A DNA stretch of 64,000 bases. It comes from Brevundimonas naejangsanensis DSM 23858 (GTDB lineage: Bacteria > Pseudomonadota > Alphaproteobacteria > Caulobacterales > Caulobacteraceae). The stretch covers positions 682,001 through 746,000 of the forward strand of contig NZ_ATXN01000002.1 in the NCBI RefSeq assembly GCF_000421705.1. The letters run 5' to 3'. Position 1 is the first letter of the stretch. Each line of letters begins with the position of its first letter. Both the position numbers and the translations under genes were made by a program. Under the pieces are notes generated by a model. It was not told the DNA's origin and did not search any database. It saw nothing but the letters and a program-made list of their open reading frames with translations. Positions 1 to 10,171 of the stretch are shown here, piece after piece.

Positions 1-597
1 ATAGATGTAGGTGTTGCGGACCATGAACTCCTTCAGAATGTCGTTCTGAATGGTCCCGGTCAGCTTGGCGTGGTCGACGCCCTGCTCCTCGCCCGCCACA
101 ACGTAGAGGGCCAGGATCGGCAGCACCGCGCCGTTCATGGTCATGGACACCGACATCTGGTCCAGCGGAATGCCGTCGAACAGGGTGCGCATGTCCAGAA
201 TGCTGTCGATGGCCACGCCGGCCATGCCGACGTCGCCCTTCACCCGCGGATGGTCCGAGTCATAGCCCCGGTGGGTGGCCAGATCGAAGGCGACCGACAG
301 GCCCTTTTGCCCCGCCGCCAGGTTGCGGCGATAGAAGGCGTTGGACTGCTCGGCGGTCGAGAAGCCCGCATATTGGCGGATGGTCCACGGCGCGCCCGCA
401 TACATGGTCGGATAGGGCCCGCGCACGAAGGGAGCGAAGCCCGGCAGGCCGTGGATGAAGTCCAGCCCGTCCAGCGCCTCCGGCCCATAGGCCGTCTCGA
501 CCGTCAGCCCCTCGGGCGTGGTCCACGGCGCGCGCTCAGGCCCGGCGTCGGTCGCGCGCAGATCAAGGGGGACCTTGGAGAAATTAGGAAAGCTCAT
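1..597 (-). CDS. mutB: Methylmalonyl-CoA mutase large (alpha) subunit, 5' part, cut by window edge
   Basis: This is the adenosylcobalamin-dependent subunit that isomerises methylmalonyl-CoA to succinyl-CoA in the cytoplasm. Translating the minus strand from the ATG at 595-597 gives 199 uninterrupted residues starting [12 protein letters not shown] and ending in the family signature [19 protein letters not shown], which lines the substrate barrel. Residues around 70-110 read [21 protein letters not shown], also typical. The rest, including the C-terminal cobalamin domain, lies beyond the left edge. The start overlaps the stop of mutA in an ATGA, which argues for translational coupling and supports this start. 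It is the last visible gene of the propionate operon. The identification is firm; only completeness cannot be judged. Confidence 0.95.
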
Positions 598-1970
598 TGG
601 GCGGCCTCCTCGAAGGCGGCGGCGAAGCGAACAGGCGCCAAGGCCTCGAACGCTCCGGCGACGGCGGCCACGGCGGGCGCGGGCGTCACCGGCGCGGAAC
701 GCACGTCCGGGTCGACAAATTTGGTGACGCCGACGATCTGGGCGGCGCCGTCCTTGAAGGCCTTCTCAGCCATGTCGCGAGCGCGGGCGATGCGGGGTTG
801 GATCACCCCGCCTTCCAGACAGGCGATGACGCCGCCTTCGGCCTCATAGACCTGAAACTCGGCCCAGGCGGCCTCGGCCAACTCACGCGTGCGGGCGTCC
901 AGATACCAGGAACCGCTGGCCGGATCGTCCACGCGGCCCAGATTGGACTCCTCCATCAGGATCAGCTGGGTGTTGCGAGCCTGACGCTTGGCGAAGTCGT
1001 CCGGCAGGCCCGCCGCGCGGGTGAAGCCGTCCAGCACCACCGCATCAGCCCCGCCCACGGCCCCGGCGAACCCGGCGGCGGTCAGGCGCAGCATATTCGG
1101 CCACGGATCGCGCGCCGACAGCATCCGTCGCGACGAGCGCGCCTCGATGACCGCCGGAACCTCGGCGCCGAACGCCCTAGAAACGCTGGCCCCGATCAGG
1201 CGCAGCGCGCGGATCTTCGCCAGGGAGTCGAAATAGGCCTGATCGACGGCGACACCTAGGACCACGCCTTTCAGAGCCGCCTCGACCGACAGACCCGCCT
1301 CAACCGCTGCCTTCACATAGGCCACAGCCGACGACGCGGCGAAGGCCAGTTCCTGGGCGATGGAGCCGCCCGCCTCGTGCGCTGCACGGCCCGAGGCCAT
1401 GAACAGCGTCGCCTCGGGATAGGTCGCGGCGTGGGCCGCCGCCGCCTTGGCCGTCGCAGCCATGAGGGCCGCGAAGTCGCCCGGCGCCCCGCCCGCCTCG
1501 GCATAGGCCGAGATCGGATCGAGGTGGAAGGCCAGCTTGGCGCGGGGCGAACCCTTGGCGACCGCCGACAGGGCCTCGGCCGCCTTCACCCCGTCGAACC
1601 CGGCGTCCAGCGCCACCGGCGCCAGCTCCAGCGCCACCCCGTCCAGCGCGCGCGCCAGACGCCCGACATCCGCCGCGACCGGCCCGGCGATCAGGATGGA
1701 GGCCGCCCCGTTTTCCAGATCGGTCAGGATGGCGCGGTTCAGGGCGTCCGCGTCCTCGCCCTCGTTCAGCGCCCGCACGTCCCACGCCCGACCTTCGGAA
1801 TCCGAGGGCCGGGGCGCAAACACCGACTCGCCGCCGTTCGCCGCCCCATACAGGGGCTTCGTCGCCAGATGATCCGCATCCAGATGGATGAGGCTCTCCA
1901 GCGAACGCTCCTTCAGCGCCTTTACGGCGGCTTCGCGCCACTCCAGCGGGGTCGGGTTGGGGAAGGTCAT
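594..1970 (-). CDS. mutA: Methylmalonyl-CoA mutase small (beta) subunit
   Basis: A 458-residue protein pairing with MutB. It keeps the TIM-barrel fold of the large subunit but does not bind cobalamin. Recognisable features are the N-terminal [21 protein letters not shown], the middle stretch [23 protein letters not shown], and [19 protein letters not shown] near residue 355, all shared by mutase subunits. The family's C-terminal cobalamin-binding domain is reduced to an Ala/Pro-rich tail, as usual for small subunits. The ATG start at 1970 lies about 210 bp downstream of pccA, separated by an inverted-repeat element. The stop overlaps the mutB start by 4 bp. Together they make the succinyl-CoA-forming enzyme of the pathway. 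Confidence 0.95.
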
Positions 1971-1990
1971 GCGGCCGCTCCTTCTTCCTT

Positions 1991-2164
1991 CGTCATCCTC
2001 CGGCCAGCCGCGCAGCGGCGCAGACTGGGGGACCCAGCGGCGCGCGAAAGCGCGAAGCTGTCACGCACGCCGTGCGCCCCATCGAAACACGGCGTTGTCG
2101 CCTTCGCTTCGCTGCGGCGCCGCTGGGTCCCCCGGTCGCTCCTGCGGAGCGCCGGAGGATGACG
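1991..2164. repeat. Long inverted-repeat intergenic element (GTCATCC family)
   Basis: The gap between pccA and mutA is filled by an imperfect palindrome. The outer arms GTCATCCTCCGG (1992-2003) and CCGGAGGATGAC (2152-2163) are perfect complements. So are the 17-bp inner arms GGGGGACCCAGCGGCGC (2027-2043) and GCGCCGCTGGGTCCCCC (2117-2133). It could fold into a long hairpin in the polycistronic RNA. Similar ends (GTCATCC...GGATGAC) recur at 41225-41290, with a relative at 63281-63370, so it is probably a dispersed repeat rather than a dedicated regulator. Confidence 0.8.
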
Positions 2165-2178
2165 AAAGAGGGAAAGCA

Positions 2179-4155
2179 TCACTCGAACTCCACCAGCACG
2201 TCGTCGGCCGCCACCGGATCGCCGGCCTTGGCCTTGACGGCCTTCACCTTGCCGTCGCGCTCGGCCTTGAGGATGTTCTGCATCTTCATGGCTTCGATGA
2301 TGGCGACGGTCTCGCCGGACTTGACCTCCCGCCCCTCGGTGACGGGGATGTCGACCACCAGACCCGGCATCGGCGACAGCACCAGCTTGGAGGTGTCCGC
2401 CGCCTGCTTCTCGGGCAGCAGAGCATAGAGGTGCGCCACGTCGGGACGCAGCACCCGCACCCGCGCCTTGGCCGCGCGGTGGCGGATGTCGAAGCCGTCG
2501 GCGGCGCGCTTCACCTCGGCGGTGAAGGCGTCGTCGTCCAGCACCGCCTTGAACAGCGACAGGCCCGGCCGCCAGTCGATCTCCGACAGGGAGACCTCCT
2601 CGCCGTCGATGGCGACGATCAGGTCCTCGGCCTCGTCATAGCCGACCTCGACCTCATGGGCCGTCTTGTCGACCAGCACGGTCCAGTCGGTGCGCTCGCT
2701 GGGGTCGCCGTCCTGTTCGGCGATGACCTCGTTCATGGCCACGGCCGAGGCGATCAGGATCTTCACCTGCTCCGGCGTCGGCGCCAGACCGTGGAAGCCC
2801 TCGGGGAACTCGTCCTTGATGTAGCTGGTCGACAGCTGGCCGGACTGGAAGCGTTCCTGGTCCATGACCGCCGCCAGGAAGGGCACATTGTGGCCCAGCC
2901 CCGACAGATGGGTGTCCTCCAGCGCGCGGGCCATGCCGCGCACGGCGTCCTCGCGCGTCTCGCCCCAGGCGCACAGCTTGGCGATCATGGGGTCGTAGAA
3001 CATGCTGATCTCGTCGCCCTCGCGGACGCCCGAGTCATTGCGGACGATGTAGTCGCCCTGATCGCCTTCCTCGGGCTGCTCATAGCGCACCAGACGGCCG
3101 ATCGACGGCAGGAAGCCGCGATAGGGGTCCTCGGCGTAGATGCGGCTCTCGATGGCCCAGCCGTTGATCGAGAGGTCTTCCTGCCTGATCGCCAGCTGCT
3201 CGCCCCAGGCCGAGCGGATCATCTGTTCGACCAGATCGACGCCGGTGATCAGCTCCGTCACCGGATGCTCGACCTGCAGACGGGTGTTCATCTCAAGGAA
3301 GAAGAAGCTCTTGTCCTGACCGGCGACGAACTCGACCGTGCCCGCCGAGTCATAGTTCACCGCCTTGGCCAGGGCGACGGCCTGCGCCCCCATGGCGGCG
3401 CGGGTGGCCTCGTCCAGCAGGGGCGACGGCGCCTCTTCGATGACCTTCTGGTTGCGGCGCTGGATCGAGCATTCGCGCTCGAACAGGTGGATGACGTTGC
3501 CGTGCTTGTCGCCCAGCACCTGAATCTCGATGTGGCGCGGGTCGACGATGAACTTCTCGAGGAAGACGCGGTCGTCGCCGAAGGCGTTCAGCGCCTCGGC
3601 CTTCACGGCGGCGAAGCCCTCGGCCATGTCGTCGTCCGAATGGGCGACGCGGATGCCCTTGCCCCCGCCCCCGGCCGAGGCCTTGATCATCACCGGATAG
3701 CCGATCTCACGCGCGATCTTCACGGCCTCCTCCGGCGTTTCGATCAGGCCCATATGGCCCGGCACGGTCGAGACGCCCGCCTCGGCCGCGAACTTCTTGG
3801 ACGTGATCTTGTCGCCCATGGCGTCAATCGCCTCGGGGTTCGGCCCGATGAAGGCGATGCCCTCGGCCTTCAACCGCCGCGCAAACCCGGCGTTTTCCGA
3901 CAGGAAACCGAAGCCGGGGTGCACGGCCTGCGCCCCCGTCTGCTTCACGGCGTCCACGATCTTATCCTGGATCAGATAGGACTGGGCAGCGGGCGACGGG
4001 CCGATGTGAACCGTCTCATCCGCCATCTCACACGCCAGCGAACCAGCGTCGGCGTCGGAATAGACGACGACGGTTTTGATGCCCATCTTGCGGCAGGTCT
4101 TGATGACGCGAACAGCAATTTCGCCTCGGTTGGCGATGAGGATTTTGGAGAACAT
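2179..4155 (-). CDS. pccA: Propionyl-CoA carboxylase alpha subunit (biotin carboxylase plus biotin carrier)
   Basis: A 658-residue cytoplasmic enzyme that carboxylates biotin with ATP and bicarbonate and passes CO2 to propionyl-CoA bound on PccB. In order: biotin carboxylase N-domain (KILIANRGEIAVRVI, residues 4-18), ATP-grasp with glycine-rich loop SAGGGGKGIRV (160-170), the catalytic stretch EMNTRLQVEHPVTE, the C-domain, a BT linker region, and a C-terminal biotinyl domain with EAMKM, whose Lys624 would carry biotin. The BT-containing layout and length fit PccA better than acetyl- or methylcrotonyl-CoA carboxylase. The position between pccB and mutAB settles the substrate. The start lies 15 bp after the stop of the inserted STAS/ATPase gene, and no strong ribosome binding site is visible ahead of it. 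Confidence 0.95.
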   Translation of the reverse strand: MFSKILIANRGEIAVRVIKTCRKMGIKTVVVYSDADAGSLACEMADETVHIGPSPAAQSYLIQDKIVDAVKQTGAQAVHPGFGFLSENAGFARRLKAEGIAFIGPNPEAIDAMGDKITSKKFAAEAGVSTVPGHMGLIETPEEAVKIAREIGYPVMIKASAGGGGKGIRVAHSDDDMAEGFAAVKAEALNAFGDDRVFLEKFIVDPRHIEIQVLGDKHGNVIHLFERECSIQRRNQKVIEEAPSPLLDEATRAAMGAQAVALAKAVNYDSAGTVEFVAGQDKSFFFLEMNTRLQVEHPVTELITGVDLVEQMIRSAWGEQLAIRQEDLSINGWAIESRIYAEDPYRGFLPSIGRLVRYEQPEEGDQGDYIVRNDSGVREGDEISMFYDPMIAKLCAWGETREDAVRGMARALEDTHLSGLGHNVPFLAAVMDQERFQSGQLSTSYIKDEFPEGFHGLAPTPEQVKILIASAVAMNEVIAEQDGDPSERTDWTVLVDKTAHEVEVGYDEAEDLIVAIDGEEVSLSEIDWRPGLSLFKAVLDDDAFTAEVKRAADGFDIRHRAAKARVRVLRPDVAHLYALLPEKQAADTSKLVLSPMPGLVVDIPVTEGREVKSGETVAIIEAMKMQNILKAERDGKVKAVKAKAGDPVAADDVLVEFE

Positions 4156-4170
4156 GGTCAGTCTCGGATT

Positions 4171-5382
4171 CTAGTTTGTCTGCCTAAGCCGGGAAGCGAT
4201 TTCGCGAGAAATGATGCCTTGAATGACATCATTCGCTCGCTGAACGAGTACTCGGCGCCTTAGCCATTCTTCGCCCCTTTTCTCGGCCAACTTCGCGAAG
4301 ACTTCGTCAGCGAAGCTGCTGCTGATCACCGAGATGTCCGCAAACGATATGATCACGCCGCCCCCATCATCAGCGGCGGCGGCCAAGTTTTCAACTAGAT
4401 TTCGGAAACGTTCTCCGCCAGCTCTAGTTGATATGTCGCCAATACGGTCTCTAACAAATATAGTATAATGATCTTCATCATGATCAAAAGTCTTGTCTAT
4501 GAAGTCGAAATATATTTCATGGGATTTTCCTTCAAATACCAATGCGTTTTTTAGCAGATCTGGATCGTCGAGGCCGACCGACCAGTGCACCAATGTTCCT
4601 GAGAAGGGAATTTTCTCTGAAGACGAAGAAACCGAGTTGTTCATTCTATTGTAGAACAATCTTGCATACCCGCTATCCATAAGGAAATGCCCCTTGGATT
4701 TCATCGCAATCTGGGATGTACCAAATAGGCCGTTCCCTTTGTTGTATCCTTTGTTGCTTGTCACGCCCTCTTTGATTGACTGGCTTAGGGCTTCGGGGGC
4801 GTTATGAATTCCAATCCTTTTCATAGACTCTGGAATTCCTTTGCCGGAGTCTCCGACAACAAACTCAACCACCCGCTTTTTCTTGAAAATTGTCGCTTCT
4901 AGATAGGCCCCGTTTCGGGATCCTCCGTGGTTGAATACATTGTCGACTACCTCATTCAGAGACCATTCGAGTGCTTGAAGTTGAGGTCGACCAACCCCCG
5001 GAACCGCAGTCAGGATGGTCCTGAGAACCTGATCCACGGCCAAGTGCACTTGCTTGCTCGACATAACGTGGATGAGTGAAGTGCTTCCCGAAACTGATTT
5101 CGGAATATCGTCGAACGGCTGACGAAGGATGTGAAATTCCCAGCAGTTCTTCTTGAATATGGACGCGAGCTTTTTGTCTTCGGGAGCTACGAAAAGATAC
5201 GAAATCTCAGGAGATAGCTGAGATATCAAACCAATCATGGCGCTAGGCATAGCTTTCTTAGTGTTGGAAAAATCAAGGATTATGTCCTTCTTCCCAGATC
5301 TTTCGAGCCCATGAAGTCCGGCCAAAAGAAACTTGTAGGACTTCAAATCCACCTCAGCAGGAAACGTGATAGTTCGGTCCAC
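4171..5382 (-). CDS. STAS-like / GHKL ATPase / DUF4325-like three-domain protein, AT-rich insert in the propionate operon
   Basis: A 403-residue protein I cannot name. Residues 1-95 resemble a STAS-like anti-sigma-antagonist fold (KKDIILDFSNTKKAMPSAMIGLI, 31-52). Residues about 115-270 form a GHKL/HATPase_c domain: N-box EWSLNEVVDNVFNH (139-152), G1 box DSGKGI (178-183), and the lid/G2 stretch NKGNGLFG (214-221). Residues 300-395 match the STAS-like DUF4325 style (RDRIGDISTRAGGERFRNLV ... ISSSFADEVFAKL). There is no signal peptide or membrane segment. Known pathways built from such modules are SpoIIAB/RsbW-type partner-switching kinases; its own role is unknown. The start is a GTG at 5380-5382, 11 bp after pccB; no in-frame ATG is nearby. 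G+C is low (sampled lines 28-47%, against about 67% in pccB), so it looks acquired. Being in the same direction with tiny gaps, it should be co-transcribed with pccBA. Confidence 0.75.
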   Translation of the reverse strand: MDRTITFPAEVDLKSYKFLLAGLHGLERSGKKDIILDFSNTKKAMPSAMIGLISQLSPEISYLFVAPEDKKLASIFKKNCWEFHILRQPFDDIPKSVSGSTSLIHVMSSKQVHLAVDQVLRTILTAVPGVGRPQLQALEWSLNEVVDNVFNHGGSRNGAYLEATIFKKKRVVEFVVGDSGKGIPESMKRIGIHNAPEALSQSIKEGVTSNKGYNKGNGLFGTSQIAMKSKGHFLMDSGYARLFYNRMNNSVSSSSEKIPFSGTLVHWSVGLDDPDLLKNALVFEGKSHEIYFDFIDKTFDHDEDHYTIFVRDRIGDISTRAGGERFRNLVENLAAAADDGGGVIISFADISVISSSFADEVFAKLAEKRGEEWLRRRVLVQRANDVIQGIISREIASRLRQTN

Positions 5383-5393
5383 GATATGATCGC

Positions 5394-6929
<1,536 letters not shown>

Positions 6930-6975
6930 GGTTGGGCGACTCCCTGACTTCGTTCAGGGTCCAACAAGCCGCTTC

Positions 6976-7062
6976 GTTGCAAAAAGGCAATCGCAACTTT
7001 GCAAAAGGTGCGTAAGTGCGTAAGCCTGCCAAGGCGCACAGGCGTTTTTGCAAAGTTGCAAC
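6976..7062. promoter_or_regulatory. ScfR/PccR operator cluster between pccB and scfR
   Basis: This divergent promoter region holds TTTGCAAA at 6998-7005 and again at 7047-7054, plus TTGCAAA at 6977-6983. The first and second copies lie in a perfect 14-bp inverted repeat, GCAACTTTGCAAAA (6993-7006) and its complement TTTTGCAAAGTTGC (7046-7059). TTTGCAAA-type half sites are, as I recall, the binding motif of the short-chain acyl-CoA regulator PccR of Rhodobacter sphaeroides. A tandem TGCGTAAG pair sits between (7009-7024). Binding by the adjacent regulator is an inference. Confidence 0.75.
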
Positions 7063-7083
7063 GCCGATGACCGATGCAGGGCG

Positions 7084-8496
7084 ATGGCTGAAAAACTCTA
7101 CCTCGGGACCAAGGTCCGCAAGCTGCGCGAGACGCGCGGCTGGACGCTGGAGCAGTGCGCCGGGCGGCTGGCGCTGTCGCCGTCCTACCTGTCGCAGATC
7201 GAGACCAATCAGCGTCCGGCGACGGCGCGGGTGCTGATCGCCCTGACACGGGCCTTCGACGTGGACGCCAGCCTGTTCGACCTGGACGGCGACGCCCGCC
7301 TGATCGCCGACCTGCGCGAGGCGACCACCGACGTCGCGGGCCACGCCGAGGCGCCGACGGCGGGCGAGCTGAAGCAGGCGGCCATGAACGCGCCCCGGCT
7401 GGCGCGACAGTTTCTGGCCCTGCATCAGGACTATCGCCGTCTGGACGAGCGGCTGAAGACGCTGAACGAGACGCTGGGCCGCGACGAACGCGCCACAGTC
7501 GCCGCCCCCGCCCTGCCCTATGAGGCGGTGCGCGACTTCTTCCACTATCGCGACAACTACATCGACGCCCTGGATCGGGCGGCCGAGGATCTGGCCGCAC
7601 GGCTGAACCTGGGCGACGGCGCCCACCCTGAGCGCGAGTTGGAGGCCGCCCTCAACGACCTGTGCGGCGTGCGCGTCGCCACAAGTCAGGGGCGCGGCGC
7701 CATGCGACGCTTCGATCCAGGCGCGCGCATCCTCTATGTCGACGCCAGCCTGCCGGGCGCCACCCGCGCCTTTCAGATGGCGCACCAACTGGTTCGCTTA
7801 CGGTTCGAGGACCTGATCGAGCACGAGCTGGACCGCGCCGCCTTCGACATTCCCGCCGCGCGCGACGTGTGTCGGGTCGGTCTGGCCAACTATGCGGCGG
7901 GGGCGCTGCTGCTGCCCTATCGTGCGTTTCTGGAGGCGGCGCGGGAGCTGCGGCACGACGTGGACCGCCTGCGCAACCGCTTTCACGTCAGCTTTGAACA
8001 GGCCTGCCACCGGCTGAGCACGCTACAGCGCCCCGGCTGGCGCGGCGTGCCCTTCTACTTCGCGCGGGTGGACATGGCGGGCAACATCACCAAACGGCAC
8101 AGCGCGACGCGCTTCCAGTTCGCCCGCTTCGGCGGCGCCTGCCCGCTATGGAACGTGCATGAGGCGTTCAGCGCCCCGGACCGAATTCTGGTCAATCTGT
8201 CGGAAATGCCCGACGGCGCCCGCTACGTCTGCCTCGCCAAGAGCGTGTCCAAGCCCGGCGGGTCGTTCCTGGAGCCGGACCGGCGCTATGCGCTGGGTCT
8301 GGGGTGCGAGATCGAGCACGCGGCCCAGTTGGTCTATGCGGACGGGCTGGACCTCAACGGCCCACCCACGCGCATGGGCGTCAACTGCCGCATCTGCGAG
8401 CGGACGGACTGCACGCAACGGGCGTTTCCGCCAATCGACCGCACGCTGGCCGTGCCGGAGAACGAGCGGGGGGTGATCCCGTATGTTCTCAGTTGA
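7084..8496 (+). CDS. pccR: Short-chain fatty acyl-CoA regulator (ScfR/PccR family)
   Basis: A 470-residue transcription factor: an XRE-type helix-turn-helix (residues 10-60, LRETRGWTLEQCAGRLALSP then SYLSQIETNQR), a middle IrrE/M78-like domain, and a C-terminal DUF2083 domain with the cysteine cluster NCRICERTDCTQRAFPP. Family members sense propionyl-CoA or acetyl-CoA and control carboxylase or glyoxylate genes. The metalloprotease HExxH motif is absent; the corresponding helix reads AHQLVRL. I chose the ATG at 7084, preceded by GCAGGGCG. An in-frame TTG at 7048 would put the start inside the operator and is unlikely. Divergent from pccB with shared TTTGCAAA sites, so it most likely regulates the propionate operon and itself. 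The gene symbol is by function and context. Confidence 0.88.
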   Translation: MAEKLYLGTKVRKLRETRGWTLEQCAGRLALSPSYLSQIETNQRPATARVLIALTRAFDVDASLFDLDGDARLIADLREATTDVAGHAEAPTAGELKQAAMNAPRLARQFLALHQDYRRLDERLKTLNETLGRDERATVAAPALPYEAVRDFFHYRDNYIDALDRAAEDLAARLNLGDGAHPERELEAALNDLCGVRVATSQGRGAMRRFDPGARILYVDASLPGATRAFQMAHQLVRLRFEDLIEHELDRAAFDIPAARDVCRVGLANYAAGALLLPYRAFLEAARELRHDVDRLRNRFHVSFEQACHRLSTLQRPGWRGVPFYFARVDMAGNITKRHSATRFQFARFGGACPLWNVHEAFSAPDRILVNLSEMPDGARYVCLAKSVSKPGGSFLEPDRRYALGLGCEIEHAAQLVYADGLDLNGPPTRMGVNCRICERTDCTQRAFPPIDRTLAVPENERGVIPYVLS

Positions 8497-8498
8497 AT

Positions 8499-8664
8499 CC
8501 TTCCCCCGATGGGAGAAGGTGCCCCGAAGGGGCGGATGAGGGTTCTCGGCCTCAGTCGGCGTAAGCCGTCGCAAAACGGCTGACTTCGGAACCCTCACCC
8601 TTTCGCCTGTTCCAATCGCCTTCGGCTCTTGGTGGCTCAAGCCCTCTCCCATCGGGAGAGGGTC
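8499..8664. repeat. Inverted-repeat intergenic element (CCCTCTCCC family)
   Basis: The convergent gap between pccR and mmsA is almost entirely one imperfect palindrome. The left end CCTTCCCCCGATGGGAGAAGG (8499-8519) pairs with CCCTCTCCCATCGGGAGAGGG (8643-8663), and GATGAGGGTTC pairs with GAACCCTCACC inside. It could act as a bidirectional stop for the two genes that converge on it. Its ends resemble those of the element at 61311-61455. Confidence 0.7.
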
Positions 8665-8668
8665 AGAG

Positions 8669-10171
8669 TCAGCTCATCGTCGGGATGATGAAGCTGGAGT
8701 CTTCATGCTCCAGAGCGCTGTCGGGCCAGCGGGCCGTCACCGTCTTGGTCTTGGTCCAGAACTTCACGCCTTCCATGCCGTACTGGTTGGTGTCGCCGAA
8801 GCCCGAACGCTTCCAGCCGCCGAAGGAGTGGTAGGCCACCGGCACCGGGATCGGCACATTGATGCCGACCATGCCGACGTTGACGCGGGCGGCGAAGTCG
8901 CGGGCCGCGCGGCCGTTCTGGGTGAAGATGGCGACACCGTTGCCGTACTGGTGCTTGCTCGGCAGGCTCAGGGCCTCCTCAAAGTTGGCGGCGCGGACGA
9001 TCTGCAGCACCGGGCCGAAGATCTCTTCCTGATACGACGACATGTCCGTCGTCACATGGTCGAACAGCGACGGGCCGATGAAGTAGCCTTTCTCATGCCC
9101 CTGCAGGCTGAAGTCGCGCCCGTCGACGACCAGTTCGGCGCCTTCCTCAACGCCCTTGCTGATCCAGCCGGCGACGCGGTCACGGTGCTGGGCGGAGACC
9201 ACCGGGCCATAGTGAGCCTGGTCATCGGTCGAGACGCCGACGCGCAGGGTCGGGATTTCGGCGACCAGACGCACGCGCAGTTCATCGGCGGTCTTCTTGC
9301 CGACCGGCACGACGACCGGCAGGGCCATGCAGCGCTCGCCGGCCGAGCCATAGGCCGCGCCCGACAGGTCCTTGATGACCTGATCCAGATCGGCGTCGGG
9401 CATGACGATGCCGTGGTTCTTGGCGCCGCCCATGGCCTGGACGCGTTTCCCGTGCTGGGCGCCCGTCTGATAGACGTAGTGGGCGATGTCCGACGAGCCG
9501 ACGAAGCTGACGGCGTGGATGTCGGGATGGGCCAGGATGGCGTCGACCGCCGTCTTGTCGCCGTGGACGACGTTCAGCACGCCCTTGGGCGCGCCCGCCT
9601 CCATCATCAGTTCGCCCAGACGCACCGGCACGGACGGGTCGCGCTCGGACGGCTTCAGTATGAAGGTGTTGCCGACGGCGATGGCGACGCCGAACATCCA
9701 CATCGGGATCATGGCCGGGAAGTTGAACGGGGTGATGCCCGCCACCACGCCCAGGGCCTGACGCGAGGAGTAGACGTCGATGCCCGGACCGGCGCCCAGC
9801 GTGTATTCGCCCTTCAGGGCGTGCGGGATGCCGCAGGCGAACTCGATGACTTCCAGACCACGCTGGATGTCGCCCTTGGAGTCGGCGATGACCTTGCCGT
9901 GCTCGCTGGACAGCATCTCGGCCAGTTCGTTCATGTTCGCCTCGACCAGGCGCTTGAACTCGAACATGACGCGGGCGCGGCGCTGCGGGTTGGTCGAGGA
10001 CCAGCCTTCAAAGGCGGCCTGCGCCGACTGGACCGCGCGGTCCATCTCGCTGACGGTCGCCAGTTGGACGCGTGCCTGAACCTCGCCGGTATTGGGGTTG
10101 AAGACGTCGCCGAAGCGGCCCGACGCCCCCTCGAAAGCCGCACCGTCGATGAAGTGGCGAATATCGCGCAT
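8669..10171 (-). CDS. mmsA: Methylmalonate-semialdehyde dehydrogenase (CoA-acylating)
   Basis: A 500-residue cytoplasmic aldehyde dehydrogenase converting methylmalonate semialdehyde, NAD+ and CoA to propionyl-CoA and CO2 in valine and thymine breakdown. Catalytic Cys281 lies in GSAGERCMALP, the oxyanion Asn150 in TPFNFPAMIPMWMF, and the C-terminal half contains SFGGWKRSGFGDTNQYG. These are signatures of the CoA-dependent branch. I chose the ATG at 10171 because a GGGAGAG ribosome binding site precedes it; an upstream TTG at 10207 would add 12 residues without such a site. It is divergent from a LysR gene. Its product feeds directly into the PccAB-MutAB pathway encoded just to the left. Confidence 0.93.
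   Translation of the reverse strand: MRDIRHFIDGAAFEGASGRFGDVFNPNTGEVQARVQLATVSEMDRAVQSAQAAFEGWSSTNPQRRARVMFEFKRLVEANMNELAEMLSSEHGKVIADSKGDIQRGLEVIEFACGIPHALKGEYTLGAGPGIDVYSSRQALGVVAGITPFNFPAMIPMWMFGVAIAVGNTFILKPSERDPSVPVRLGELMMEAGAPKGVLNVVHGDKTAVDAILAHPDIHAVSFVGSSDIAHYVYQTGAQHGKRVQAMGGAKNHGIVMPDADLDQVIKDLSGAAYGSAGERCMALPVVVPVGKKTADELRVRLVAEIPTLRVGVSTDDQAHYGPVVSAQHRDRVAGWISKGVEEGAELVVDGRDFSLQGHEKGYFIGPSLFDHVTTDMSSYQEEIFGPVLQIVRAANFEEALSLPSKHQYGNGVAIFTQNGRAARDFAARVNVGMVGINVPIPVPVAYHSFGGWKRSGFGDTNQYGMEGVKFWTKTKTVTARWPDSALEHEDSSFIIPTMS

Follow-up and report, generated by a model that had tools for sequence, protein, structure and literature searches.

The closest described relatives of the protein reported here belong to two kinase-STAS systems characterized by Chambers et al. 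(EMBO J 2026, PMC13373217). The first, VapKSC, consists of the kinase VapK, the STAS antitoxin VapS and the PIN toxin VapC. VapK, a STAS-GHKL protein, is proposed to phosphorylate VapS, upon which the VapC toxin, otherwise inhibited by the C-terminal tail of VapS, is released; the protection conferred by vapKSC on E. coli, seen with one phage, was about 2-log (PMC13373217). In the second, CapK is an HTH-STAS-GHKL kinase that phosphorylates CapS, a STAS-winged-HTH repressor, when single-stranded DNA (ssDNA) is present, and together the two regulate Bub, CBASS and other immune operons (PMC13373217). The ssDNA trigger was shown for CapK and is proposed for VapK, and the ssDNA contact in VapK/CapK involves the aromatic residues F54 (VapK) and W68 (PMC13373217). 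The pairs SpoIIAB/SpoIIAA and RsbW/RsbV are separate proteins that control sigma factors (PMC13373217), and Rv1364c of M. tuberculosis carries a partner-switch kinase and a STAS domain on one polypeptide (PMC9138534).

In this study we analyzed a gene of Brevundimonas naejangsanensis DSM 23858, located in a 64,000-nucleotide stretch of contig NZ_ATXN01000002.1 (positions 682,001 to 746,000 of the forward strand, here referred to as the window). Judged by its sequence, the product appears to be a single-chain, effector-less variant of the kinase-STAS switch described in 2026. A preliminary description of this DNA had called the function unknown, which is too pessimistic, since the closest relatives are those characterized in PMC13373217. 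We found no description of the single-chain STAS-GHKL-STAS form in the open-licence PMC literature, and the terms "fusion", "single protein" and "DUF4325" are absent from the main text of PMC13373217.

The gene and its place in the pcc operon

The gene and its immediate surroundings in the window are as follows.

4171..5382, minus strand: single-chain STAS-GHKL-STAS (VapK-VapS-like) gene, 403 aa, GTG start; from the ORF, Pfam, a 49-row alignment and an AF2 model
5394..6929, minus strand: pccB, left wall of the insertion slot, found in 84 of 101 genomes at E <= 1e-200
2179..4155, minus strand: pccA, which forms the right wall of the slot; an imported tract may make up its first 18-48 nt
4156..5393, no strand: the pccB-pccA insertion slot, 8-11 bp in relatives with an empty slot

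Translation of 4171-5382 gave one intact ORF of 403 codons with a GTG start and no internal stops. It begins 11 bp after pccB and ends 15 bp before pccA, the same gaps as given in the preliminary description, whose "gene set" between pccB and pccA was correctly placed and is in fact one gene. The AT-rich contrast to the operon, put there at about 45% G+C in 67%, is also real, with figures that need correcting: the gene has a G+C content of 47.4%, and pccB and pccA have 66% each. The codon-adaptation comparison that had been proposed gave a GC3 of 0.52 for the gene versus 0.92 for each of its two neighbours, and the window's own codon usage gives the gene a negative score. Promoter-like sites are near chance (3 found versus 1.4 expected, sd 1.4), and we do not claim a promoter of its own for the gene.

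Domain architecture and conserved residues

The 403-aa protein can be divided into four parts in the order STAS 1, SpoIIAB-type GHKL kinase, linker and STAS 2 (DUF4325), all encoded on the minus strand.

5107..5382, minus strand: STAS domain 1, residues 1-92; TM1442, a STAS protein, is matched by a profile built from 18 N-termini (E 4e-4)
4564..5094, minus strand: GHKL kinase domain of SpoIIAB type, residues 97-273; VIA-align to SpoIIAB 1til_E
4471..4563, minus strand: linker between kinase and STAS 2, residues 274-304; AF2 secondary structure
4174..4470, minus strand: STAS domain 2 (DUF4325), VapS-like substrate half, residues 305-403; PF14213 and VapS profile matches

Pfam places DUF4325 (PF14213) at residues 323-386 (E 2e-13, 50 bits against a curated cut-off of 23) and HATPase_c at residues 142-233 (E 2e-5, 25.3 bits, just below the 26.4-bit cut-off), while an NCBIfam scan of the protein gave zero matches. 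An AF2 model built with 49 homologues is one confident chain (pLDDT 92.5, pTM 0.91), in which STAS 1 begins at residue 4 and residues 97-273 align with SpoIIAB 1til_E (VIA-align, Z 15.9, rmsd 2.5, 135 residues). When N-termini were compared singly with STAS_2, 3 of the 18 matched at E up to 0.1, and the window protein was not among these three; we regard its STAS 1 as a candidate sensor half. The three-domain plan put forward earlier, with a STAS-like domain, a GHKL ATPase and a DUF4325-like C-terminus, is thus borne out by Pfam, by profiles and by the model. Structure prediction shows a GHKL fold and two STAS domains, where finding neither fold would have spoken against that plan, and the suggestion that kinase and antagonist sides may lie in one chain agrees with the single ORF that carries both domain types.

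Residue counts were taken from an alignment of 49 rows (A3). Seven loci were set aside from it, among them truncated, split or contig-end rows (L016, L017, L026, L058, L077, L078 and L083), and it also omits the divergent rows L072, L073, L075 and L076, the near copies L044, L046, L049 and L051, the weak matches L008-L014 and same-contig duplicates. The conserved positions are listed below.

4927..4968, minus strand: N-box EWSLNEVVDNVFNH, residues 139-152, with E144, D147, N148 and H152 in 49 of 49 rows
4831..4851, minus strand: G1 box DSGKGIP, residues 178-184, with D178 and G180 in 49 of 49 rows
4720..4737, minus strand: G2 box GNGLFG, residues 216-221, with G216 and G218 in 49 of 49 rows
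4318..4320, minus strand: Ser355, predicted phospho-acceptor, which aligns to the serine in VapS DFSNVKMFAS; 48 of the 49 rows have Ser
5140..5142, minus strand: Trp81, at the N[AT]NWAH motif of the family; 44 of the 49 rows have W here and 3 have a gap

The intact N-box, G1 box and GNGLFG lid reported from the letters alone are therefore real, their key residues being invariant throughout the alignment. For the solved VapS structure 9z7o, we take the DFSNVKMFAS serine to be the phosphosite that the paper numbers S48. The residue after Ser355 is also Ser in 48 of the 49 rows. At the corresponding acceptor position of STAS 1 the window protein has Pro46, in a column that holds P, A, E, S, Q or L across the 49 rows. 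An acceptor serine kept in STAS 2 and lost in STAS 1 is what would be predicted for a kinase with a built-in substrate. Column 346 has Ser in the window protein versus Asp in 45 of the 49 rows.

Comparison with known systems

The order and sequence of the two halves are those of vapK and vapS. On a plasmid of Deinococcus gobiensis, genes for an ATP-binding protein, a STAS-like protein and a PIN protein stand in a row (vapKSC). Residues 34-275 of the window family match the D. gobiensis VapK at E 3e-11 (hhalign), residues 317-397 match its VapS at E 1.4e-6 (profile comparison), and STAS 2 matches the solved VapS 9z7o at E 6e-8 in a profile search of solved structures. What is shared with VapKSC is a STAS-GHKL kinase followed, in the same order, by a STAS domain with a conserved acceptor Ser. 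However, VapK and VapS are separate genes there and one 403-aa chain here, no VapC PIN gene is adjacent here, where the neighbours are pccB and pccA, and the window protein is without the VapC-blocking C-terminal tail of VapS: five residues follow R398 (median 8 in the 49 rows), and in the D. gobiensis VapS 27 residues extend past its match. Across the 49 rows there is no invariant aromatic residue in the candidate ssDNA-contact loop, and the window protein has Lys43 where two VapK relatives, which are not the VapK and CapK of PMC13373217 itself, have Trp. Alignment did not place F54 or W68 on a residue of the window protein; the conserved aromatic that this family does have is W81. On an Alicyclobacillus plasmid both halves occur as separate genes, with no annotated PIN gene beside them.

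With CapK/CapS the protein would share the use of a GHKL kinase with a STAS domain that acts on a STAS substrate. In contrast to these, it has neither an N-terminal HTH nor a C-terminal winged HTH, its chain ending with STAS 2, and an immune operon is absent beside the gene, which has the pcc operon on both sides. DUF4325 was found in 21 of 372 genomes of the sampled class at E <= 0.001. Eight of the short stand-alone DUF4325 genes follow a gene of 339-387 aa, in which the match to the STAS-GHKL profile comes behind an N-terminal extension of 40-90 residues, and we read these longer genes, from their sequence, as probably CapK-like. Since the anatomy is alike but some defining features of each system are lacking, we did not file the window protein under VapKSC or CapKS.

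To the SpoIIAB/SpoIIAA and RsbW/RsbV pairs it is related by kinase fold (Z 15.9 to SpoIIAB) and by the position of the acceptor Ser; the fold and the N, G1 and G2 boxes of SpoIIAB/RsbW-type GHKL serine kinases are present, and kinase activity is predicted. In those pairs, however, kinase and STAS partner are separate proteins, whereas here they form one chain. The earlier remark had set the single chain against the separate proteins normally used in partner-switching; a one-chain kinase-STAS protein has a precedent, in another setting, in Rv1364c (PMC9138534). Rv1364c differs in having PAS and PP2C phosphatase domains and in regulating sigma F, while the window protein has a putative sensor STAS and no phosphatase.

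The gene's only PADLOC match is DrmA of DISARM (PDLC02567), whose profile positions 137-392 match window residues 135-398 at E 1e-16. We rejected DrmA as a name for the protein, because only these positions of the 1750-position model match. The helicase part is missing here, and pcc genes take the place of DISARM neighbours. A 1736-aa protein (L072:7605-12815), beside ORFs of 1056 and 1377 aa, has the STAS-GHKL-STAS module before a long C-terminal region, which we read as a DrmA-type helicase, so that the same switch is seemingly wired to a helicase; a rare fusion of this type would explain the DrmA match of the window gene.

Two further records resemble parts of this architecture. In a Francisella prophage table, a hypothetical protein of 293 aa precedes a DUF4325 protein of 112 aa, sizes close to those of VapK and VapS (PMC7924643), and the bacteria-like genes reported from the fungus Rhizophagus irregularis include one entered as "ATPase, DUF4325" (PMC5982333).

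Distribution of the gene

Among the 101 genomes of the relatives search (own included; for 90 of them completeness is 90% or more and contamination 5% or less), no homologue was found at E <= 0.001 in any of the 100 relatives. Of 385 genomes in the class, a match of some kind is present in 14: the own genome, six with strong full-length matches and seven with weak partial ones. A scan of genome contigs with the single sequence gave 75 stretches with no relative among them. With a profile, the genome contigs yielded 54 loci, which belong to Pseudomonadota, Gemmatimonadota, Bacteroidota, Chloroflexota, Actinomycetota and others, and the viral contigs yielded five homologues. Two of these five have phage structural genes nearby: on one viral contig (L080) a Baseplate_J gene adjoins the homologue, and on another (L081) a weak match to Tail_completion_gp17, below the Pfam cut-off, lies two genes away. 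Most homologues are about 405-425 aa long with the same architecture, and many are far lower in G+C than their surroundings (L025, 44% in 65%; L030, 43% in 66%; L028, 46% in 68%). The Gemmatimonadota copies are only a few points off the surrounding G+C, and the gene in L068 is richer than its surroundings. In the tree, the window gene is a long branch (1.8) without a supported sister.

We then looked at the neighbours of the homologues. When ORFs of 64 homologue loci were clustered (up to 4 kb or the contig end), neighbours common to more than three loci were confined to loci of Gemmatimonadota type, and seven of these have one site in common. In these seven (L043-L046, L049, L051 and L053) the gene stands in a conserved place between the same neighbours at near-host G+C, and for these two reasons it seems to be vertically inherited in that lineage and not mobile. 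Of the 158 flanking genes that passed the filters (at most 2.5 kb away and at most 850 aa, five divergent or plasmid loci being excluded), 148 were scanned for Pfam and PADLOC families. No Pfam family occurred more than three times in them, integrase and HTH families reaching three, and PIN is not among the 25 commonest families and thus present in at most two of the 148 genes. PADLOC families beside homologues are each found in one or two genes, among them SoFic, a type II methyltransferase and CapP. No recurrent partner, VapC or other, was found beside homologues in the 64 clustered loci and the 148 scanned genes.

Three loci deviate in other ways. L075:7728-8822 and L076:4078-5181 encode shorter versions of 364-367 aa that align to the family only from about residue 118, and in L076 a long downstream gene resembles, by eye, a type I restriction methylase. 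On a Nostoc plasmid (L016:3202-4308) a DUF5895 gene follows the homologue after 44 bp on the same strand, one of few possible linked partners.

The pccB-pccA slot as an insertion hotspot

The slot was surveyed in 30 loci (the own locus and 29 congeners), of which 24 were resolved; the other six have no pccA within the stretch. In 16 of the 24, the own locus included, it holds an insert of 396-1238 bp, and in the other eight it is empty (8-11 bp). Three control gene pairs of similar spacing in the same genus had inserts in 0/30, 0/30 and 0/22 loci (0/82 together, 8 of 30 loci being unresolved for the third pair), with a largest gap of 182 bp. Four species whose PccB is 99-100% identical have an empty slot, and a fifth has a different gene there (L089). 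Among 40 further stretches, 38 are without pccA, and the two with it are L120 (gap 1718 bp) and L143 (3410 bp, another genus). The pccB-pccA slot is therefore firmly an insertion hotspot.

Comparison of the insert DNA joined L091, L099, L101 and L102, weakly linked L103 with L108, and related L100 to part of L120; from this, the slot holds about a dozen different genes. We scanned the 16 inserts besides that of the window (15 from resolved loci and that of the congener L120). Pfam found GIY-YIG in four, Fic in two, and NucS_C, DUF4145, CAP12 TIR, LMWPc and DUF4760 in one each, and no Pfam family in L090, L096, L097, L105 and L107. PADLOC matches below 1e-8 were obtained in five of the 16: L095 (PDC-S02), L103 and L108 (PDC-S23), L106 (PD-T7-4) and L120 (PDC-S35), a set made up of one TIR, two Fic, one PD-T7-4-like and one NucS-like gene. 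The remaining 11 have no such match, the four GIY-YIG inserts reaching UzuA only at E 0.001-0.008 and seven giving none. Ten ordinary window genes, taken as control, had no PADLOC match below 0.001, and the difference between 5/16 and 0/10 has a one-sided exact probability of about 0.07, not significant alone. A defence hotspot is thus only suggested.

Some inserts have features of their own. The GIY-YIG genes of L091, L099, L101 and L102 lie on the antisense strand, and copies of the inverted sequence CGTCATCCT...AGGATGACG occur near the insert ends and inside; these inserts look like a small mobile unit. The gap of L120 (G059) contains a CAP12/Pycsar-type TIR gene and also DNA akin to the LMWPc insert found in L100, so that slots may accumulate two inserts. 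The conjugative plasmid p1 of Caulobacter sp. FWC26 (L269) has a pccB-pccA operon too, with its gap occupied by an SDR gene plus one hypothetical gene.

The preliminary description had seen the gene as a foreign insertion in the pcc operon, a view to be abandoned if the gene stood at this spot across most Caulobacterales with ordinary G+C. Instead, it is absent from all 100 relatives, and its codon usage is deviant. The comparison of related genomes with and without an insert, also suggested there, gave the 16 filled and eight empty slots reported above. For its further idea, that a reliable operon houses a parked defence or signalling module, the kinship with VapK/VapS and the hotspot are circumstantial support, but a defence match was obtained in only five of the 16 other inserts.

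How the insert arrived

All 24 alleles have their left junction immediately behind the final sense codon of pccB. In the window's pccA, the opening 30 nt share 97% identity with 10 of the 12 members of a distant congener group, versus 80-83% with the five nearest species. Over the first 600 nt there are 45 diagnostic sites, 40 of which match the near species and one neither; the first three (7, 8 and 18) and site 96 match the distant group. This suggests that the insert may have come by homologous recombination together with a short piece of the donor's pccA. Nucleotides 61-90, however, are likewise diverged from the near species (77-80% identity) and do not match the distant group either (67-80%), which counts against a simple story. 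We found no convincing terminal repeats or target duplication around the insert and no tRNA genes in window positions 1-10000.

Proposed role and alternative explanations

By a narrow preference, we take the gene to be a self-contained kinase-substrate switch, carried as a lone, horizontally moved cargo and most likely directed against phage or DNA damage. The mechanism that we infer would run as follows. First, a VapK-like sensor kinase, made of a degenerate STAS 1 and a SpoIIAB-type GHKL domain, would be fused to a VapS-like STAS 2 and activated by a stress signal, by homology ssDNA from DNA damage or phage infection. Second, the kinase would phosphorylate Ser355 in STAS 2 of its own or a neighbouring chain. 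Third, phospho-Ser355 would alter the binding of STAS 2, so that an effector encoded elsewhere is released or blocked. The cargo gene itself would be carried in the exchangeable slot and transcribed from the pcc operon.

The steps of this mechanism differ in strength. That S355 is the target of the GHKL kinase, whether within one chain or between partners, is probable. A role in phage defence or damage response has about an even chance, and ssDNA or DNA damage as the trigger can be proposed only tentatively, by homology. The output likely goes through an unlinked host target instead of a linked toxin, because no partner recurs beside homologues. A bolder version, in which a one-gene stress or anti-phage switch, with kinase and phospho-target in one chain and no need of a linked effector, applies STAS 2 directly to a host target and is traded by homologous recombination via a dedicated single-gene slot within a core metabolic operon, alternating with TIR, Fic, nuclease and PD-T7-4-like genes, appears rather doubtful.

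Four other explanations were weighed. The gene could be a decaying or neutral passenger, captured by chance and functionless. Its long branch, its alien codon usage and its presence in one genome of 101 would fit, but 403 codons have stayed open with the checked catalytic residues and S355 intact, and we consider a mere passenger improbable.

Another explanation makes the protein a VapKS-type antitoxin with an unlinked toxin, STAS 2 holding a PIN or other toxin and releasing it on phosphorylation. Its order and sequence match to vapK-vapS and the split version on the Alicyclobacillus plasmid without an annotated PIN gene argue for this. The missing VapC-inhibiting tail and the rarity of PIN among the 148 flanking genes (at most two) argue against it, and an antitoxin moving alone would be unusual; altogether this account is distinctly improbable.

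It is very unlikely that the switch regulates the pcc operon or propionate metabolism, controlling a sigma factor or the carboxylase by metabolic state. Such a regulator might be expected inside the operon, with gaps of 11 and 15 bp, and with homology to anti-sigma kinases and antagonists. But the relatives, all without the gene, mostly keep pccB (84 of 101 genomes), unrelated genes occupy the same place in relatives, homologues elsewhere stand beside unrelated genes, and the protein has no DNA-binding domain.

Finally, the protein could be a GHKL ATPase machine that, like MutL or Hsp90, opens and closes with ATP and so shifts its STAS domains without phosphotransfer. Topoisomerase, MutL and Hsp90-type ATPases also appear in the Foldseek list, but this account is hardly credible, since topoisomerases lie clearly further from residues 97-273 (Z about 10) than SpoIIAB chains (Z 15-16) and the acceptor Ser is conserved in STAS 2 and not in STAS 1.

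Meaning of the finding

We found no description of the pccB-pccA slot in the open-licence PMC literature. It is comparable with the core defence hotspots cDHS1/2 of P. aeruginosa, which have conserved flanks and highly variable content including defence genes, with islands of median 26 and 6 kb beside tRNA or tmRNA genes (PMC10250203). The slot likewise has conserved flanking genes and highly variable content that includes genes matching defence models; it differs in that its inserts are mostly one gene each, 0.4-1.2 kb long, and in its place within a catabolic operon with no tRNA nearby. It thus resembles the Pseudomonas hotspots of PMC10250203 at single-gene scale within an operon.

If our preferred reading of a self-contained, horizontally moved switch is true, cargo genes would be exchangeable inside a core operon with both walls left intact, and the slot would serve as a small trap, simple to amplify, in which undescribed single-gene cargo, including defence systems, could be caught. 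The damage-sensing chemistry of VapK/CapK would then be available as a portable single-protein device across many phyla, one that could be cloned and tested as one gene.
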